Source: Taklimakanibacter albus (GTDB taxonomy: Bacteria; Pseudomonadota; Alphaproteobacteria; Rhizobiales; Aestuariivirgaceae). From it: 64,000 nucleotides of DNA. A program made the position numbers and the translations under genes. Below the pieces are notes generated by a model. The model did not search any database, was not told the origin of the DNA, and was given only the letters and a program-made list of their open reading frames with translations. Positions within the stretch are counted from its first letter, which is position 1; each line of letters opens with the position of its first letter. Below, piece after piece: positions 21,259 to 29,457 of the stretch. The stretch is taken from NCBI RefSeq assembly GCF_016595235.1, contig NZ_JAENHL010000006.1:434001-498000 (forward strand). The letters are read 5' to 3'.

Positions 21259-21362
21259 CGGTTCGGCTGCCTCATTCTGCCTTAAACTACCTTGGGAGCC
21301 CCTAATTTTCGTCATATTACTTGGGACTATGGCGCTGTTATGCGCATTCTGGAGGGCGGCAT

Positions 21363-23867
21363 ATGAAAAGAACTGTCATCACCCTGGCCACGGCCTTGCT
21401 GCTGGGAACGTCCTGGACGGCATTGGCCCAGGAGCAGGATCCCAATGCCGTCATCATTCCGGATGGCCAGTCCGGCGCCGGCCAGCAGGAAGGCCAGGCG
21501 CCCGAGCAAAAGCCGGAGAAGAAGCGCAAGAAGCGCGACGCCGAGCAGCAGAACGAGTCGGCGCAGCCTTCGGCCGACCAGCAATTCGAACAGCCGCAGC
21601 CCGAGAAGAAAAAGCGCAAGAAGCAGGCCGAGCAGCCTGATGATTCGATGCAGCAGCCCTCGGGCGGCCAACAGTTCGAGGAACCGAAACCCGAAAAGAA
21701 GCGCAAGAAGAAGCAGGCTGAGCAGCCGGAAGAGATCCAGCAGCAGCCCGCGGCGGAGCAGCAGTTCGAAGAGCCCAAGCCCGAGAAAAAGCGCAAGAAG
21801 AAGCAGCAGGCCGAGCAGCCTGAGGAACCGGTTCAGCAGCCGGTCGAAGAACAGGTCCAGCAGCCGGAGCCGGTGAAGAAAAAGAAGAAGCAGGCGGAAC
21901 AGCCGGAAGAGCCCGTCCAGCAGCAGGTCGACCAGCCGGTCGAGCAGCCGACCGATCAGCAGGCCGAGCAGCCGCAGCCCGAGAAGAAGAAAAAGAAGAA
22001 GGAGCAGGCCGAGCAGCCGGCGCCGTCCGAGCAGACGACGGGCGAATCGAAGACCGAGACCCCGGCCGCCGGCAATGTCCCGGCCGATGTTTCGCAATAT
22101 CTGTCAGACACGCGTCCGGCAAGCGAGCTTTCCGACGCCGAGCTCAGCCAGAGGATCAAGGCCGGCCGCAGCCTCTCGAAGATGAAAGGCCTGCCCGACG
22201 ATGTCCGCCAGGAGCTGGCCGGCAAGGCCAAGCAGGCGCGCACCGAAGCCATCGCGCGTGAGCAAGGTGGTGGAAAGGCGGGCAAGCAGCCCGAGCCTGG
22301 ACAGCAGACGACTGAGCAGCCGACTGGACAGCAGCCCGAACAGACGACTGGTGAATCCACGCCCGGCACGTCGGACCAGGCTGGCGTTCCGCCGGAAGTG
22401 ACACAGTATCTTTCCGACACGCGCCCGGCGAGCGAGCTTTCCGATGCCGAACTGGCCGAACGCGTGAAGGCCGGCCGCACTCTGTCGCGGACAAAGGGCT
22501 TGTCGGACGATGTCCGTCAGGAGCTAGCCGGCCGTGCCAAGCAGGCGCGCACCGAGGCTCTTGCGCGCGAGCAGGGCAAGGGTGGCAAGCAGCCGGAATC
22601 TGGCCAGCAGCCGACGGCGGAGCAGCCATCTGGCGAGCAGCCGACGGCCGAAAAGCCTGTTGGTGAGCAGCCGACCATTGCCGACCCGAAGAAGAATGCT
22701 GAAGGCCAGGAAGTCGTCCCCAACGATCAGGCGGGTCAGCCGCCGATCACGCTCGACAAGAAGGACGTCGAGAAGCTCGACAACACCAAGGCGACGCCGC
22801 AGGCGGAAGCCAAGGCCAAGTCCTATCTGGACGACAACCGTCGGTCCGATCAGTTGAAGGACGACGAGGCCAAGGCGCGTCTCGATGGCATGCGGGAGCT
22901 TCTCTCCGACAACGAGCTGTCGCGCGACACCAAGCGGGAGCTGCGCCGCAAGCTCAAGGAGGAGCGTGATCTCTATCGCAACCGCGTCGCCGAGAAGGTG
23001 ATCGTCGAGGAGAAGAAGGACGAGCAGCGTGACCGCATTCCGCGCCGTCGCGACCGTGAAGAGGATCGCCGCTGGGACAATTGGGCCGAGCGTGACATCC
23101 TGCGTGACCGGCGCCGGTCGGACGAGCTCGAGGAAGGCGAATTGCGCCGCCGCATCGACATCTATCGCGAGGCTATCTACGACGATCGCTACAGCGATGA
23201 CGAGCGGACCTATTGGCGCGACATGATGGATCGCGACCGGCGTTATCTGGGTGACCGCATGCGCCGCGACCGGGACGAGCGCGAGCGTTATTGGCGCGAC
23301 CGGCGCGACCGCAACGAGATCAGGATCGACATCAATATCAATCTGAGCGGCGATCGCGAGCCGCCGGACTCGGCCTTCATCGACGAGATCGACGATGAGG
23401 AACTCGAGGACTATCTGGTCACGGCGCCGCGTCGCAAGGTTCCGCGCCGCTATACGGTGGCCGAGATCGAGGAGGAGCCTGAGATCCGCACCGCGATGCC
23501 GGCCATCGAGATCGACAACATCCATTTCGGCTTCAATGAAGCCTTCCTGCGCGAGGAGGAGGTCGAGAATCTCGACCGCATTGCCGAGGTGGTCGAGAAG
23601 ATTCTGGCCGCCCATCCCGACGAGGTCTTCATGATCGAGGGCCATACCGACGCGGTGGGCTCGGATGCCTATAATCTGAAGCTGTCGCGCGAGCGTGCCC
23701 AGGCGGTCAAGAAGGCGCTCACCAGCTACTACGCCATTGCCCCCCGCAACCTGGTGACGGCGGGGTACGGCGAGCGGTATCTCAAGATCCCGACCGCCGA
23801 GCCCGAGGAGGAGAACCGCCGCGTGTCCTTCCGGCGCGTGACGCCGCTGGTGGGCGAGGCCGAATAG
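21363..23867 (+). CDS. OmpA-family envelope protein with low-complexity and helical repeats
   Basis: An 834-residue protein. Signal peptide (RTVITLATALLLGTSWTALA) at residues 2-23. Residues about 45-230 are repeats of an 'EQP.PEKKKRKKQAEQPEE' type, rich in Gln, Pro, Lys and Glu. Four diverged copies of a roughly 50-residue helical unit follow: near 239 and 341 (YLSDTRPASELSDAEL in both, nearly identical), near 483 (YLDDNRRSDQLKDDEA) and near 576 (ILRDRRRSDELEEGEL). An Arg/Asp-rich segment (about 600-680) leads to a C-terminal OmpA domain (about 710-830: FMIEGHTDAVGSDAYN and LSRERAQAV, peptidoglycan-binding). ATG 21363 is preceded by GGAGGG. Likely anchored to the cell wall; function of the long N-terminal region unknown. 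Confidence 0.87.
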   Translation: MKRTVITLATALLLGTSWTALAQEQDPNAVIIPDGQSGAGQQEGQAPEQKPEKKRKKRDAEQQNESAQPSADQQFEQPQPEKKKRKKQAEQPDDSMQQPSGGQQFEEPKPEKKRKKKQAEQPEEIQQQPAAEQQFEEPKPEKKRKKKQQAEQPEEPVQQPVEEQVQQPEPVKKKKKQAEQPEEPVQQQVDQPVEQPTDQQAEQPQPEKKKKKKEQAEQPAPSEQTTGESKTETPAAGNVPADVSQYLSDTRPASELSDAELSQRIKAGRSLSKMKGLPDDVRQELAGKAKQARTEAIAREQGGGKAGKQPEPGQQTTEQPTGQQPEQTTGESTPGTSDQAGVPPEVTQYLSDTRPASELSDAELAERVKAGRTLSRTKGLSDDVRQELAGRAKQARTEALAREQGKGGKQPESGQQPTAEQPSGEQPTAEKPVGEQPTIADPKKNAEGQEVVPNDQAGQPPITLDKKDVEKLDNTKATPQAEAKAKSYLDDNRRSDQLKDDEAKARLDGMRELLSDNELSRDTKRELRRKLKEERDLYRNRVAEKVIVEEKKDEQRDRIPRRRDREEDRRWDNWAERDILRDRRRSDELEEGELRRRIDIYREAIYDDRYSDDERTYWRDMMDRDRRYLGDRMRRDRDERERYWRDRRDRNEIRIDININLSGDREPPDSAFIDEIDDEELEDYLVTAPRRKVPRRYTVAEIEEEPEIRTAMPAIEIDNIHFGFNEAFLREEEVENLDRIAEVVEKILAAHPDEVFMIEGHTDAVGSDAYNLKLSRERAQAVKKALTSYYAIAPRNLVTAGYGERYLKIPTAEPEEENRRVSFRRVTPLVGEAE

Positions 23868-24378: not shown

Positions 24379-24864
24379 ATGTGGGTCGTCGTCTACATAG
24401 TGTCGATCGTCCTGGTGAACTGGCTCTTCGTGGCCGTGTCGCCCTGGCCGACGGTATTCGGCGACCTTTATCTTGCCAATCTGGTGGTCGGCTTCGTCTT
24501 CGTGCTCCGTGACTACGGGCAGAGGCAGGTCGGCCACAAGATCCTGCTGGCGACACTCGTCGCCGGCATCATCACCTATTTCATGGTCGATCCGGCGATT
24601 GCCATCGCCAGCATCACAGCTTTCATCCTGTCCGAGATGACGGACTGGGCCATCTATTCCTTCACCCGGAAGCCCTTGCAGCAGCGCATCCTGATCTCGA
24701 GCCTGGTCGCGGTGCCGCTGGATACGCTGGCCTTCCAATATTTGGCGAATTACCTCACCCCGGCCGCCTTCTCGATGGAAGTGCTGAGCAAGGCGGTGGG
24801 TGTGTTCATCGTCTGGTATCTGCTCAGGCTGCGGACCGGCGACGCGCCGGCGCCGGCTCATTGA
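24379..24864 (+). CDS. VUT-family (YhhQ-like) membrane protein
   Basis: A 161-residue protein with five or six hydrophobic segments (about 2-18, 26-43, 50-75, 80-97, 108-125, 133-150). The pattern ASITAFILSEMTDWAIYSF is characteristic of VUT/YhhQ proteins, some of which carry queuosine precursors (preQ0). It is somewhat short for the family. ATG 24379 is chosen because the longer open frame to 24214 lies inside ndk. The substrate is a guess; no queuosine gene is nearby. Confidence 0.65.
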   Translation: MWVVVYIVSIVLVNWLFVAVSPWPTVFGDLYLANLVVGFVFVLRDYGQRQVGHKILLATLVAGIITYFMVDPAIAIASITAFILSEMTDWAIYSFTRKPLQQRILISSLVAVPLDTLAFQYLANYLTPAAFSMEVLSKAVGVFIVWYLLRLRTGDAPAPAH

Positions 24865-24865
24865 C

Positions 24866-25624
24866 GTGACTCCGGCTGCCGTCGCGATCTACGCCGCGGG
24901 CAGCCTCAGAAACGCGCTGCCGCTCGTCTCGGGCGCTTTCACCAAGAATACCGGCATCGCTGTCACCGTCCGACACGGTCCCGCCGGCCTTTTGCGCGAG
25001 CATATCGAAAGTGGCGGCCGGCCTGATCTCTTCCTGTCGGCGAACATGGAGCATCCTGTCCGGCTGCATCAGCTGGGGCTTGCGGCGCCGCCCATTCTCT
25101 TCGCCCGCAACCGCATGGTGGCTCTGGTCCGCCGCACCGCCGGCATCACGCAGGACAATTTCATCGGCCGTAGTCTCGAGCCGGCGATCCGGATCGGAAC
25201 ATCGACGCCAGTGAATGATCCCTCCGGTGACTATGCCTGGGAGATATTCCGGAGCATCGACGCTGCGCGGGCAGGGGCTTTAGCCATCCTCGATGCCAAG
25301 GCGCAAAAGCTTGTCGGTGGCTCGGTGCCCACAGCCGCCTTGCCGCCGTCATACGATATCGTCGCCAGCGCTCTGGCCGAGGGATCCGTCGATATGTTCC
25401 TGGGCTATGCCACCGGCCTCGTGCCCCTGGCGCACAAGCTCAGCGATGTCGAGATCGTCGAGCTGCCGAAAGAGATCAATGTCGTTCCCGAATATGGCCT
25501 GGCCGTGCTCAAGGACGCATTGCCCTCGGCCTTGTCCTTCGCCCTTTTTCTGATGTCGGGTGCCGGCCAAGGGCTGATCCGGCAAGCTGGCTTCCTGCCG
25601 GTAGCGCTTTCCGCCGACGCCTGA
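24866..25624 (+). CDS. ModA-like oxyanion-binding protein without a signal peptide
   Basis: A 252-residue protein of the molybdate/sulfate-binding class. IYAAGSLRNALPLVSGAF at about residues 8-25 is the ligand-binding strand-helix, and GGRPDLFLSANMEHPVRL near residue 52 matches the 'G.paDvF.SA' segment. The C-terminal lobe includes YGLAVLKDALPSALSF. The start is a GTG at 24866, one base after the VUT stop. Translation begins almost directly at the first strand, and the only upstream extension (to 24800) does not look like a signal peptide, so the protein is probably cytoplasmic. It lies just upstream of a Mo-box and a metal-chelate-type importer, which suggests a role in molybdenum handling. 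Confidence 0.72.
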   Translation: MTPAAVAIYAAGSLRNALPLVSGAFTKNTGIAVTVRHGPAGLLREHIESGGRPDLFLSANMEHPVRLHQLGLAAPPILFARNRMVALVRRTAGITQDNFIGRSLEPAIRIGTSTPVNDPSGDYAWEIFRSIDAARAGALAILDAKAQKLVGGSVPTAALPPSYDIVASALAEGSVDMFLGYATGLVPLAHKLSDVEIVELPKEINVVPEYGLAVLKDALPSALSFALFLMSGAGQGLIRQAGFLPVALSADA

Positions 25625-25655
25625 CCCCTCGCGGCCATTGCTGGCTGCCGGCCAC

Positions 25656-25679
25656 CGATATATACCATCGGATATAACG
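25656..25679. promoter_or_regulatory. ModE-type operator (Mo-box) candidate
   Basis: CGATATATA (25656-25664), spacer CCATCG, and GATATAACG (25671-25679) form an inverted repeat. It agrees with the described ModE recognition pattern of two CGnTATAT-type half sites about 6 bp apart; the main deviation is one base (G at 25671). It lies 20 bp upstream of the ATG of the importer's binding protein, where a repressor would block transcription. This is a by-eye match, not a scored one. Confidence 0.65.
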
Positions 25680-25699
25680 AAATGCGAAATGGGGGTCCG

Positions 25700-26755
25700 A
25701 TGTCTTTCCACCGGCGTGCTTTTCTGGCGCTTGCGCTTCTCTGCCTGAGTGCTCTTCCCAATGCGGCGCGGGCCGAGAGCCGCACGATCGTCGACCAGCT
25801 CAACCGCACCGTGATCTTGCCGACCGAGGTCAACCGCATCGTCGTGCTGCAGCATCAGACGCTCGATATCCTGGTCGAGCTCGGCGCCGCCGATAAGGTC
25901 GTCGGCGTGCTGAAGAGCTGGCCGAGCCTCATTCCGGGCCTCGACAAATATGCGCCGGGGCTGAAAGGCCTGCCGATGCCGGGCGATCTCTCCGCCGCCA
26001 ATGTCGAAGAGGTGTTGAGCCTCAAGCCGGATATCGTCTTCGTCACCAATTATGCGCCGCCTGAGATGATCGAAGCGATCGCCAAGACCGGCGTGCCGGT
26101 CGTCGGTATCTCCCTGTCGAAAGGCGAGGGCGTCGAGGCGCCGAAACTCAATCCGACCTTCGCCGACGACGATGTCGCTTATGCGGAGGGCCTCAAGATC
26201 GGCGTCAAGCTGATCGGCGAGATCGTCGGCAAGTCCGAGCGCGCCGAGGAGCTGCTGAACTTCGCTTTCGCCAACCGCAAGCGGGTCGAGGAACGTGTCG
26301 CCAAGATCGCCGATGCCGATCGCGTCCGCCTCTATATGGCGAACCCCAAGATGAGCACCTATGGTTCAGGCAAATATACCGGCGTCATCATGAAGCGTTC
26401 GGGTGGCATCAATGTCGCGGCGGGTGTGCGGGGCTCGACCAAAGTATCGATGGAGGACGTGCTCGCCTGGAACCCGCAGGTCATCTTCGTCCAGGACCGT
26501 TATGCGCCGGTGGCCGACGAGATCCGGCAGGGGGCGGCCTGGCGAGAGATCGACGCGGTCAAGAACAACCGCATCTACATCACACCCGAATATGTGAAGC
26601 CCTGGGGTTATCCGCTGCCTGAGGCACTGGCGCTGGGCGAGCTCTGGATGGCCAAGAAGCTCTATCCCGATCAGTTCGCCGATATCGACATGCAGAAGGA
26701 AGTGGACGCCTTCTACACCCAATTTTATGCGCAGCCTTATACCGGGCCGCACTGA
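25700..26755 (+). CDS. periplasmic binding protein of a metal-chelate/oxyanion importer (FecB/BtuF class)
   Basis: A 351-residue class III binding protein with a signal peptide (FLALALLCLSALPNAARA, residues 6-25). It shows RTIVDQLNRTVILPTEVNRI, the standard N-terminal strands, VEEVLSLKPDIVFVTN near residue 100, and SMEDVLAWNPQVIFVQD near residue 250. ATG 25700 has GGGGG nearby and is preferred over 25682. FecB-class proteins bind siderophores, haem, cobalamin or, in MolA of Haemophilus influenzae, molybdate and tungstate. The Mo-box upstream and the ModA-like neighbour favour the last. Confidence 0.85.
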   Translation: MSFHRRAFLALALLCLSALPNAARAESRTIVDQLNRTVILPTEVNRIVVLQHQTLDILVELGAADKVVGVLKSWPSLIPGLDKYAPGLKGLPMPGDLSAANVEEVLSLKPDIVFVTNYAPPEMIEAIAKTGVPVVGISLSKGEGVEAPKLNPTFADDDVAYAEGLKIGVKLIGEIVGKSERAEELLNFAFANRKRVEERVAKIADADRVRLYMANPKMSTYGSGKYTGVIMKRSGGINVAAGVRGSTKVSMEDVLAWNPQVIFVQDRYAPVADEIRQGAAWREIDAVKNNRIYITPEYVKPWGYPLPEALALGELWMAKKLYPDQFADIDMQKEVDAFYTQFYAQPYTGPH

Positions 26756-26759
26756 GCCG

Positions 26760-27782
26760 ATGTCCGTAATGGGGAAGGAACGTCGTCTGATCGGGGGCGC
26801 CGTCCTTCTCGGCTTGCCGATCGTTCTGTTCCTTTTGTCCTTCCTGGTCGGACGTTATCCGGTGCCGCCGCTGACGGTGATCCGCATCATCGCCGCGCAA
26901 TTTCTCCCGATCGAGCCGGACTGGCCGCCGCTCGTCGCCTCCGTCGTTCTCGATGTCCGCCTGCCGCGCCTTCTGGCCGGCATGGCGGTCGGCGGTGGGC
27001 TGGCGCTGGCAGGAGCCTGCTATCAGGGCGTCTTCCGCAATCCGCTGGTCTCGCCTTTCACCCTCGGCGTCTCGGCCGGTGCCGGCTTCGGCGCGGCGGT
27101 GGCGATCCTGCTCTTCGAGCAGCATTATGCGACCCAGGCTTTGGCCTTCGTCTTCGGGCTCGCCGCGGTGGCCTTGTGCTTCTTCATGAACCGTCTCTAC
27201 CGCGCCGGCTCGACACTCGTCCTGGTGCTGGCCGGCATCATCGTAAGCTCGCTTTTCACGGCCCTTCTATCGCTCCTCAAATATGTCGCCGATCCGCATT
27301 CGAAGCTGCCGGTGATCGAATTCTGGCTGCTGGGCTCGCTGTCGGCGGTGTCGATGGAAGATGTCGTGGTCGTCCTGATCGTCATGATCCCGGCCTCCAT
27401 CCTGCTGCTGCTTTTGCGCTGGCGCATCAATATCCTGTCCCTGGGCGATGAGCAGGCGGGCATATTGGGCCTGGAAGTCGGCCGTCTGCGTTTCCTCATC
27501 GTGCTGCTCGCGACACTCGTCGCCGCCTCGACCGTGGCGATCAGCGGCATCATCGGCTGGGTCGGGCTGGTCATTCCGCATTTTGCCCGCATCCTGGTCG
27601 GTCCCGATTTCCGCAAGCTGTTGCCGACGACACTGTCCCTGGGCGCCTGCTATCTTCTCCTCATCGACGACATCGCCCGCACCGTCACCGCGGCCGAGAT
27701 ACCCTTGGGGATTCTGACCGCTTTGGTGGGGGCGCCGGCTTTCATGCTGCTTCTGCGGCGCGGATCGCTCGGATGGGCGTGA
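26760..27782 (+). CDS. FecCD/BtuC-type importer permease
   Basis: A 340-residue inner-membrane permease of the type II ABC importers, with about ten hydrophobic segments. Diagnostic stretches are RLPRLLAGMAVGGGLALAGA near residue 72, RNPLVSPFTLGVSAGAGFGA near residue 97, GIIGWVGLVIPHFARI near residue 262 and EIPLGILTALVGAPAF near the C-terminus. ATG 26760 lies 4 bp after the binding-protein stop. The ATPase gene overlaps its last 10 bp. Confidence 0.92.
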   Translation: MSVMGKERRLIGGAVLLGLPIVLFLLSFLVGRYPVPPLTVIRIIAAQFLPIEPDWPPLVASVVLDVRLPRLLAGMAVGGGLALAGACYQGVFRNPLVSPFTLGVSAGAGFGAAVAILLFEQHYATQALAFVFGLAAVALCFFMNRLYRAGSTLVLVLAGIIVSSLFTALLSLLKYVADPHSKLPVIEFWLLGSLSAVSMEDVVVVLIVMIPASILLLLLRWRINILSLGDEQAGILGLEVGRLRFLIVLLATLVAASTVAISGIIGWVGLVIPHFARILVGPDFRKLLPTTLSLGACYLLLIDDIARTVTAAEIPLGILTALVGAPAFMLLLRRGSLGWA

Positions 27783-28552
27783 TCCTCGCCGCCGAGAAAG
27801 TCGGCTTTTCTTATGCCGGCCGATCACAGCCGGTCTTCAGTGGGGTGAGCCTCGATATTGCCGAAGGCGAGATCCTCTGCGTCCTGGGACCCAACGGCAT
27901 CGGCAAATCAACCTTGCTCAGATGTCTTTCAGGTCTCGCTCCCGCTACGACCGGTGCCATTCATGTCGCCGGACAAGACATGACGGAGCTTTCGCGCAAC
28001 GAAATCGCCCGTCATCTGGCCCTGGTGCCGCAGAACGACGAAGCGGTCTTCGCCTTTGCCGTCCATGCCGTCGCCGAAATGGGACGCGCGCCCTATCTCG
28101 GCCTGTTCGAACGGCCCGGTCCGAAAGAGGCGAGTCTTGCGCTGGAGGCGCTGGCGACCCTCGGCATCGCCCATCTCGCTGAAGTGTCGTATACCGAGAT
28201 CAGTGGCGGTGAGCGTCAACTGGTGCAGATCGCCCGCGTTCTGGTCCAGGCCCCCCGGCTCATGATCCTCGATGAGCCGACGGCGCATCTCGATTTCGCC
28301 AATACCGCGCGGCTCCTCGCCTTGCTGCGCCGCCTGGCCAGGAGTGGCCTTGCCGTCATCTTCACAACTCATGCGCCGGACCAGGCCTATGCGCTGGCCG
28401 ACCGCACGCTCATATTGTCACCGCATCACCCGCCGCGCCTCGGCGGCACGCGGGATTTGCTGACGGCCGATGTCTTGTCCGAAACTTACGGTGTGCCGAT
28501 CCGTCTCGTGGCGTCGGACAGGCACATGCTCTGCATTGCGGACGCAGATTAG
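27773..28552 (+). CDS. ATP-binding protein of the FecCD-type importer
   Basis: A 259-residue ATPase of the FepC/BtuD group. Walker A GPNGIGKST near residue 41, Q-loop VPQNDEAVFAF near residue 85, signature ISGGERQLVQIARVL near residue 143, Walker B LMILDEPTAHLDFANT and H-loop FTTHAPDQAYALAD. The start codon overlaps the permease gene, so translation is coupled. Its stop overlaps the convergent DMT gene by 4 bp. Confidence 0.92.
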   Translation: MGVILAAEKVGFSYAGRSQPVFSGVSLDIAEGEILCVLGPNGIGKSTLLRCLSGLAPATTGAIHVAGQDMTELSRNEIARHLALVPQNDEAVFAFAVHAVAEMGRAPYLGLFERPGPKEASLALEALATLGIAHLAEVSYTEISGGERQLVQIARVLVQAPRLMILDEPTAHLDFANTARLLALLRRLARSGLAVIFTTHAPDQAYALADRTLILSPHHPPRLGGTRDLLTADVLSETYGVPIRLVASDRHMLCIADAD

Positions 28553-29457
28553 GGCTGCGGTGGTGTCGGCTCGATCGGCACGCCGCGCACGCGTTCGCGA
28601 TAGGAGATGTAGATCGCGCAGGCGATGAGGATGCCGACGCCGGTAAAGGTCCAGCGATCGGGCAGGTCGCTGAAGAACCACCAGCCACAGACCACCGCCA
28701 TGATCATTTCGGCATAGGCCATGGGCGCGAGGAGCGAGGCCTCGGCATAGTGATAGGCCGCGATCACCAGATAATGGCCGATGAAAGCGATGAAGGCGAT
28801 GAGAAGCAGGAGACCCCATTGCTCGGGGCTGGGCGTCACCCAGAAGAAGCCGACCATCAGCGTGCTGAGCACGGCGCCGGCGACATTGGTATGGAACATG
28901 GTGACGATCGGATCGGCGCGCCCGGCGATGCGCCGGGTCAGGATCATGTAGACGGCGCTGGTGGTGCCGGAAAGCAGAGCGAACAAGACGCCCGCATTGA
29001 TCGCCTGGAAGCCCGGTCGGATGATGATCAGCGTGCCGATGAAGCCGATGACTACGGCGATCCAGCGGCGCAGGCCCACTTGTTCCTTGAGGATTACCGG
29101 CGACAGCATGGTGACGATCAGCGGCTGGACGAAGTAAATGGCGAGCGTGTCGGCGATCGGCAGATAGTGCAGCGCCAGGAAGAACAGCGCGGTCGAGGCG
29201 AGGACGAGGCTGGCGCGGACCGTGTGCATCACCGGCATAGTGGTCTTGAGCGCGCTGACCGGCCGGTTCCTGAGCACGAAGGGCACATTGATCAAGGTGC
29301 CGAAGATGAAACGCCCCCACACGCTCTCGATCACCGGCATGTTCATCTGGCCCAGGAATTTCGCCGCGACATCCAGGAACGGCAGAATAAGCATGGCAGC
29401 CAGCATCAAAAGGATGCCGGTAAGGGGCGCATTATGCTGTTGCGGGGAGGTTGCCAT
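28549..29457 (-). CDS. DMT-superfamily (EamA) transporter
   Basis: A 302-residue inner-membrane protein made of two EamA repeats and ten predicted helices, seen as ten hydrophobic stretches. The first repeat ends about residue 140, and KEQVGLRRWIAVVIGFIGTL is the typical loop and helix before it. The second ends with VCGWWFFSDLPDRWTFTGVG. Members export amino acids, metabolites or drugs; substrate unknown. It stands alone, convergent with the importer operon. Confidence 0.88.
   Translation of the reverse strand: MATSPQQHNAPLTGILLMLAAMLILPFLDVAAKFLGQMNMPVIESVWGRFIFGTLINVPFVLRNRPVSALKTTMPVMHTVRASLVLASTALFFLALHYLPIADTLAIYFVQPLIVTMLSPVILKEQVGLRRWIAVVIGFIGTLIIIRPGFQAINAGVLFALLSGTTSAVYMILTRRIAGRADPIVTMFHTNVAGAVLSTLMVGFFWVTPSPEQWGLLLLIAFIAFIGHYLVIAAYHYAEASLLAPMAYAEMIMAVVCGWWFFSDLPDRWTFTGVGILIACAIYISYRERVRGVPIEPTPPQP

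Follow-up and report, generated by a model that had tools for sequence, protein, structure and literature searches.

Does the operon for a FecB/FecCD-type importer in Taklimakanibacter albus serve the uptake of iron or cobalamin, as automated annotation would have it, or does it import molybdate or tungstate under control of ModE, the regulator suggested by a near-palindrome directly in front of its first gene? The original prediction, made from the 64,000-nucleotide stretch of DNA analyzed here (the window), favored the second answer, and this answer is supported by orthology of the encoded proteins and by a conserved predicted operator. Of the three findings that would have spoken against it (no ModE homologue, a poorly conserved box, a binding protein placed among siderophore or cobalamin binders), none was obtained. 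Our main reading, to which we assign a probability of about 0.87, is that the locus is a probably horizontally acquired MolABC cassette encoding a type II (FecB/FecCD-class) importer of molybdate, and probably also of tungstate, which is repressed by ModE together with modABC. The features concerned are listed below in window coordinates.

Ending at 24864: VUT-like gene, left flank
24865..28548: presumed gained cassette of 3.7 kb (leaderless modA-like gene, Mo-box, molABC), delimited by its absence in three same-genus genomes
24866..25624, plus strand: leaderless ModA-like gene, 252 aa, GTG start, matched by NCBIfam PRK03537 models and PF13531
25656..25679, no strand: Mo-box (predicted ModE operator), near-palindrome CGATATAT-N8-ATATAACG, genome-unique zero-mismatch match
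25700..26755, plus strand: molA, periplasmic molybdate/tungstate-binding protein (predicted) with FecB/BtuF fold, PF01497, signal peptide; alternative start at 25682
26760..27782, plus strand: molB, FecCD-type (type II) permease, PF01032; closest solved structure 2nq2_A (HI1471)
27773..28552, plus strand: molC, ATPase, PF00005; closest solved structure 2nq2_C (HI1470)
28549-29457, minus strand: DMT-family gene, right flank, with its stop codon at 28549

The order of genes is as had been predicted, with a FecB-class binding protein followed on the same strand by tightly coupled permease and ATPase genes (a 4-bp gap between molA and molB and a 10-bp overlap of molB and molC). When compared with all solved structures, each of the three products has its best match in the MolBC-A importer of Haemophilus influenzae: MolA in 3psa (HI1472 MolA; phmmer E value of 6.9e-109, runner-up 3.9e-30), MolB in HI1471 (4.3e-75, runner-up 4.3e-48), and MolC in HI1470 (3.3e-41). 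The predicted structure of MolA (pLDDT 79) likewise has 3psa as its top match, with 51% identity and TM scores of 0.84/0.91; identity to the runner-up structure is 25%. When 47 binding proteins were placed in a maximum-likelihood tree, MolA fell with HI1472 and 29 others into a single clade (support 99/97), apart from the siderophore and cobalamin binders, as predicted; Escherichia coli BtuF, FecB, FepB, and FhuD and distant FecB-type proteins fall outside it, with outgroup branches so long that the placement of the four E. coli proteins is unsure and our claim is limited to the unity of the MolA group. MolA, MolB, and MolC are orthologs of H. influenzae MolA, MolB, and MolC (HI1472, HI1471, and HI1470), and the locus can be assigned with good support to the MolBC-A kind, which also has a linked ModA-type gene (HI1469) in H. 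influenzae. With BtuCDF, FecBCDE, and FhuBCD, the importer shares its type II architecture and protein folds, but the tree places its MolA apart from their binding proteins, and its predicted substrate is a small oxyanion. ModABC (type I), in turn, shares the predicted substrate and the ModE/Mo-box operator, but ModB and ModA differ from MolB, which is of the FecCD type (PF01032), and from MolA with its FecB/BtuF fold; the ModB of this genome is encoded elsewhere (contig C7, position 1186647).

The box itself was found exactly as predicted, at 25656-25679, 20 bp upstream of molA given the ATG start at 25700 (2 bp if the longer open reading frame from 25682 is used). It is the near-palindrome CGATATATACCATCGGATATAACG, whose halves can be written as CGATATATA-N6-GATATAACG, and it is the sole match to that sequence with three or fewer mismatches in the window; none of 100 window shuffles gave such a match. 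No sigma-70 promoter turned up around the box in a simple consensus scan. Across the whole genome (7.17 Mb), the pattern CGNTATATN8ATATANCG has a single zero-mismatch match, which is this box, and a single one-mismatch site, C7:1185792, which lies shortly upstream of modA in the genome's modABC. A rough calculation by hand, for a genome of 62% G+C, puts the number expected by chance at about 0.004 perfect sites and 0.2 one-mismatch sites. At three or fewer mismatches, the pattern is not enriched genome-wide relative to its reversed control (89 versus 91 sites), which leaves the two best sites as the only ones that are informative on their own; the weaker ones count through their position only. 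One three-mismatch site, C7:1184895, precedes an 81-aa TOBE (Mop) gene that adjoins modABC, and is suggestive by position only. Further candidates with two or three mismatches were rejected, as no obvious molybdenum gene adjoins them in the four loci that were read. At one of these loci, two similar near-palindromes (CGTTATA...CTATT.CG) lie about 600 bp apart (C6:356404 and C6:357009), again with no obvious molybdenum gene nearby; they are perhaps due to chance or are the site of another regulator.

One point is corrected: classic modABC, whose possible absence had been raised as a question, is present under its own one-mismatch Mo-box, the second-best in the genome, which makes molABC a second importer, probably of low affinity. 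The predicted ModE homologue, on the other hand, exists in the form of two short proteins encoded elsewhere, at C7:1199415 (about 12 kb from modABC) and at C8:1124574. Both contain the ModE DNA-binding domain (E value of about 3e-24 and about 87 bits, which is below the TIGR00637 cutoff of 98.5) and align to E. coli ModE. At roughly 129 to 141 aa, they end after this domain and are without the molybdate-sensing domain; no full-length ModE with a TOBE/di-Mop domain was found in the genome, and no TOBE hit overlaps either ModE gene. In consisting of the DNA-binding domain only, they resemble the short ModE(S) proteins of Agrobacterium and Sinorhizobium, with the difference that the present genome encodes two of them. 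According to Hoffmann et al. (2016), the ModE(S) proteins of both genera reportedly bind Mo-boxes upstream of modA, and those of Agrobacterium are reported to act as repressors of modABC that respond to the status of the molybdenum cofactor; control of molABC is not known to have been covered by that work. By analogy, such repression and a response to cofactor status may also operate here.

Taken together with the shared operator, these regulators suggest the following scheme. Where molybdenum or its cofactor is sufficient, short ModE would bind the box upstream of molA and repress molABC together with modABC; where molybdenum is short, ModE would leave the box, and both importers would be expressed and running. 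In the periplasm, the oxyanion would be bound by MolA and passed through a MolB homodimer driven by MolC. ModABC would act as the high-affinity route and MolABC as added capacity, as in H. influenzae, where MolBC-A imports molybdate with low affinity (PMC4031551).

Conservation of the box was assessed in 30 loci with MolA orthologs from Mesorhizobium, Rhizobium, Shinella, Paracoccus, Phyllobacterium, Faunimonas, a Rhodospirillales MAG, Pasteurella, Pantoea, and eleven genomes of one further family of the phylum. This set spans alpha- and gammaproteobacteria, with H. influenzae itself outside the scan. A Mo-box-like site occurs in the 250 bp searched upstream of molA in all 30 loci, the best site having 0 to 3 mismatches; a site with three or fewer mismatches lies 29 to 99 bp before molA in 29 of them, and the remaining locus (L039) has two two-mismatch sites further upstream. 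Among 500 dinucleotide shuffles per locus, none was as good in most loci and six or fewer were as good in the rest, while an equally good site was rare in control stretches from the same 30 loci. The sequence of the spacer varies between lineages. The Pasteurella multocida site is weak (three mismatches in AT-rich DNA, with 6 of 500 shuffles as good). In both Paracoccus loci, a single box sits in a divergent intergenic region and faces both genes. Six loci with other kinds of ModA-like gene (L120-L125), in which that protein is secreted in five cases and mostly encoded beside a distant FecB-type importer, gave no site even at three mismatches.

These observations bear on the reading that automated annotation would suggest, in which the operon encodes an importer of ferric siderophores, heme, or cobalamin and the box is incidental. 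Its domain families and fold are indeed those of FecB/FecCD importers, and public orthologs are annotated accordingly ("iron ABC transporter permease"). Nevertheless, we regard this reading as very improbable, given that MolA clusters with HI1472 to the exclusion of E. coli BtuF, FecB, FepB, and FhuD, that the box is kept in 30 loci, and that a ModA-like gene is linked to molA in 28 of them. The "iron ABC transporter" label appears to be wrong for the whole orthologous group.

Conservation before molA also speaks to H. influenzae, whose MolBC-A serves as a model for type II ABC importers. There, molybdate represses molB 10-fold and modB 7-fold, and regulation of molABC was ascribed by the authors to "an unknown factor" (PMC4031551). 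The factor that couples transcription to molybdate was left at that, as a molybdate-responsive activity only, whereas regulators were found in the present genome in the form of the short ModE proteins. With the box shared before molA across two proteobacterial classes, ModE is the natural, and testable, candidate for this factor. In the literature searched, we found no prior link between ModE and molABC; an earlier prediction may nonetheless exist.

The choice of oxyanion leaves room for a variant in which the system imports mainly tungstate and its use of the ModE operator is fortuitous. Molybdate and tungstate are both ligands of H. influenzae MolA (PMC4031551), and in another locus (L124:5959-7607), a relative of the ModA-like gene whose product is secreted adjoins a gene for a TupA-like tungstate-binding protein, as judged by protein sequence only. 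We consider this variant unlikely, however, because molABC and modABC share an operator in the present genome and the closest characterized homolog is a molybdate importer in vivo.

How the cassette came to be in this genome is indicated by its relatives. In three genomes of the same genus (L137, L138, and L139), the VUT-like and DMT-family genes are directly adjacent, 14 to 81 bp apart, and the whole block between them is missing; these flanks are single-copy and 75 to 94% identical. Because the block is exactly missing between the same flanks, it looks like a gained cassette. No MolA ortholog was found in the relatives searched, and among 385 genomes sampled from the class, the present genome is the only one to carry it; the nearest orthologs found are from Mesorhizobium (about 80%) and a Rhodospirillales MAG. 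The G+C content of the block gives no sign of foreign origin. Gain in the present lineage is the simplest reading, probably by horizontal acquisition. Elsewhere in the window (21321-23867), an 848-aa open reading frame rich in PEKKKRKK/QAEQPEE repeats and with an OmpA-like C-terminal end was noted; its repeats align in many registers to the same-genus genomes, and its length seems to vary.

Two points in these data are of real interest: the conserved operator, which bears on an open regulatory question, and the conserved leaderless ModA partner. The ModA-like gene predicted just upstream of the box is real, as matches to the PRK03537 models attest, but it is a leaderless member of the cassette and not a spare periplasmic ModA. 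Its product is matched by the NCBIfam molybdate-binding protein models (PRK03537 set) with a best E value of 1e-67 and 228 bits, below the curated cutoff of 288, and its AlphaFold model (pLDDT 90) matches molybdate- or tungstate-bound ModA/WtpA. No signal peptide or hydrophobic N-terminal segment was found in the protein under any start codon. Of the ligand residues of ModA (Ser12, Ser39, and Tyr170 in E. coli numbering), Ser12 and Tyr170 are kept and Ser39 is replaced by Ala. The same column is Ala in all 14 MolA-linked proteins aligned to E. coli ModA, and the loop reads GPA across the MolA-linked proteins, or GPV in one. By comparison, in secreted relatives encoded next to distant FecB importers, signal peptides are clear and the Ser is retained.

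Of the 30 loci, 28 have a ModA-like gene of this family close to molA, whether upstream, downstream, convergent, or divergent; none was found near molA in the other two (L040 and L116). All 28 proteins either begin just a few residues ahead of the first strand or carry an N-terminal extension without a signal peptide. The H. influenzae counterpart is probably HI1469, which is listed as modA (PMC3928620); in the window, the gene stands upstream of molA. Five of the six Mesorhizobium loci have a second, one-mismatch box that belongs to the ModA-like gene itself. Six loci (L106, L111, L114, and L117-L119) are missing molB and molC, and in these, molA (with its signal peptide), the ModA-like gene, and the box persist together. 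Five of the six genomes were searched whole, and no close MolB was found elsewhere (best identity of about 37 to 42%, compared with 45 to 47% for retained MolB). Such molA/ModA-like pairs are at odds with transport as currently modeled. On a Mesorhizobium plasmid (L140:5749-6750), a leaderless ModA-like gene is found beside genes for a TOBE-domain protein and formate dehydrogenase; fdhF and glp are close by, and that stretch holds no molABC.

A protein without a leader that is usually annotated as the binding protein of a molybdate ABC transporter must have another role. Most likely, it is a cytosolic oxyanion binder serving molybdenum homeostasis, which would stay in the cytosol and bind, buffer, or hand on the imported oxyanion. 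More specifically, we tentatively propose, with somewhat less than even confidence, that it is an overlooked fourth Mol member: a cytosolic molybdate/tungstate binder derived from a periplasmic ancestor, which receives, buffers, or reports molybdate in concert with MolA, even where MolBC is absent. Alternatively, the gene might have nothing to do with the importer and be a modA copy in decay whose leader has been lost. Such a copy could explain the loss of Ser39 and the position of the window gene, which lies upstream of the box, right behind the VUT-like gene, and has no further box to itself within about 400 bp. Decay is nevertheless doubtful for a gene that has an open reading frame without a leader next to MolA in 28 of the 30 loci, across two classes, that is absent or present jointly with molABC as one block, that has its own one-mismatch Mo-box in most of the Mesorhizobium loci, that is retained beside molA where molBC is lost, and that also occurs beside a TOBE protein and formate dehydrogenase.

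Apart from the MolA orthologs, the loci surveyed contain a second FecB/FecCD-type importer family (L120-L123; L142 in Azospirillum; L103:3334-5382 in Shinella). In L120-L123, where no Mo-box was found, and in L142, it is linked to a secreted ModA-like gene. It lies near fdhE and a sigma-54 regulator in Azospirillum and beside a gephyrin-like glp gene in Shinella, and is possibly another molybdate/tungstate importer annotated as an iron transporter.
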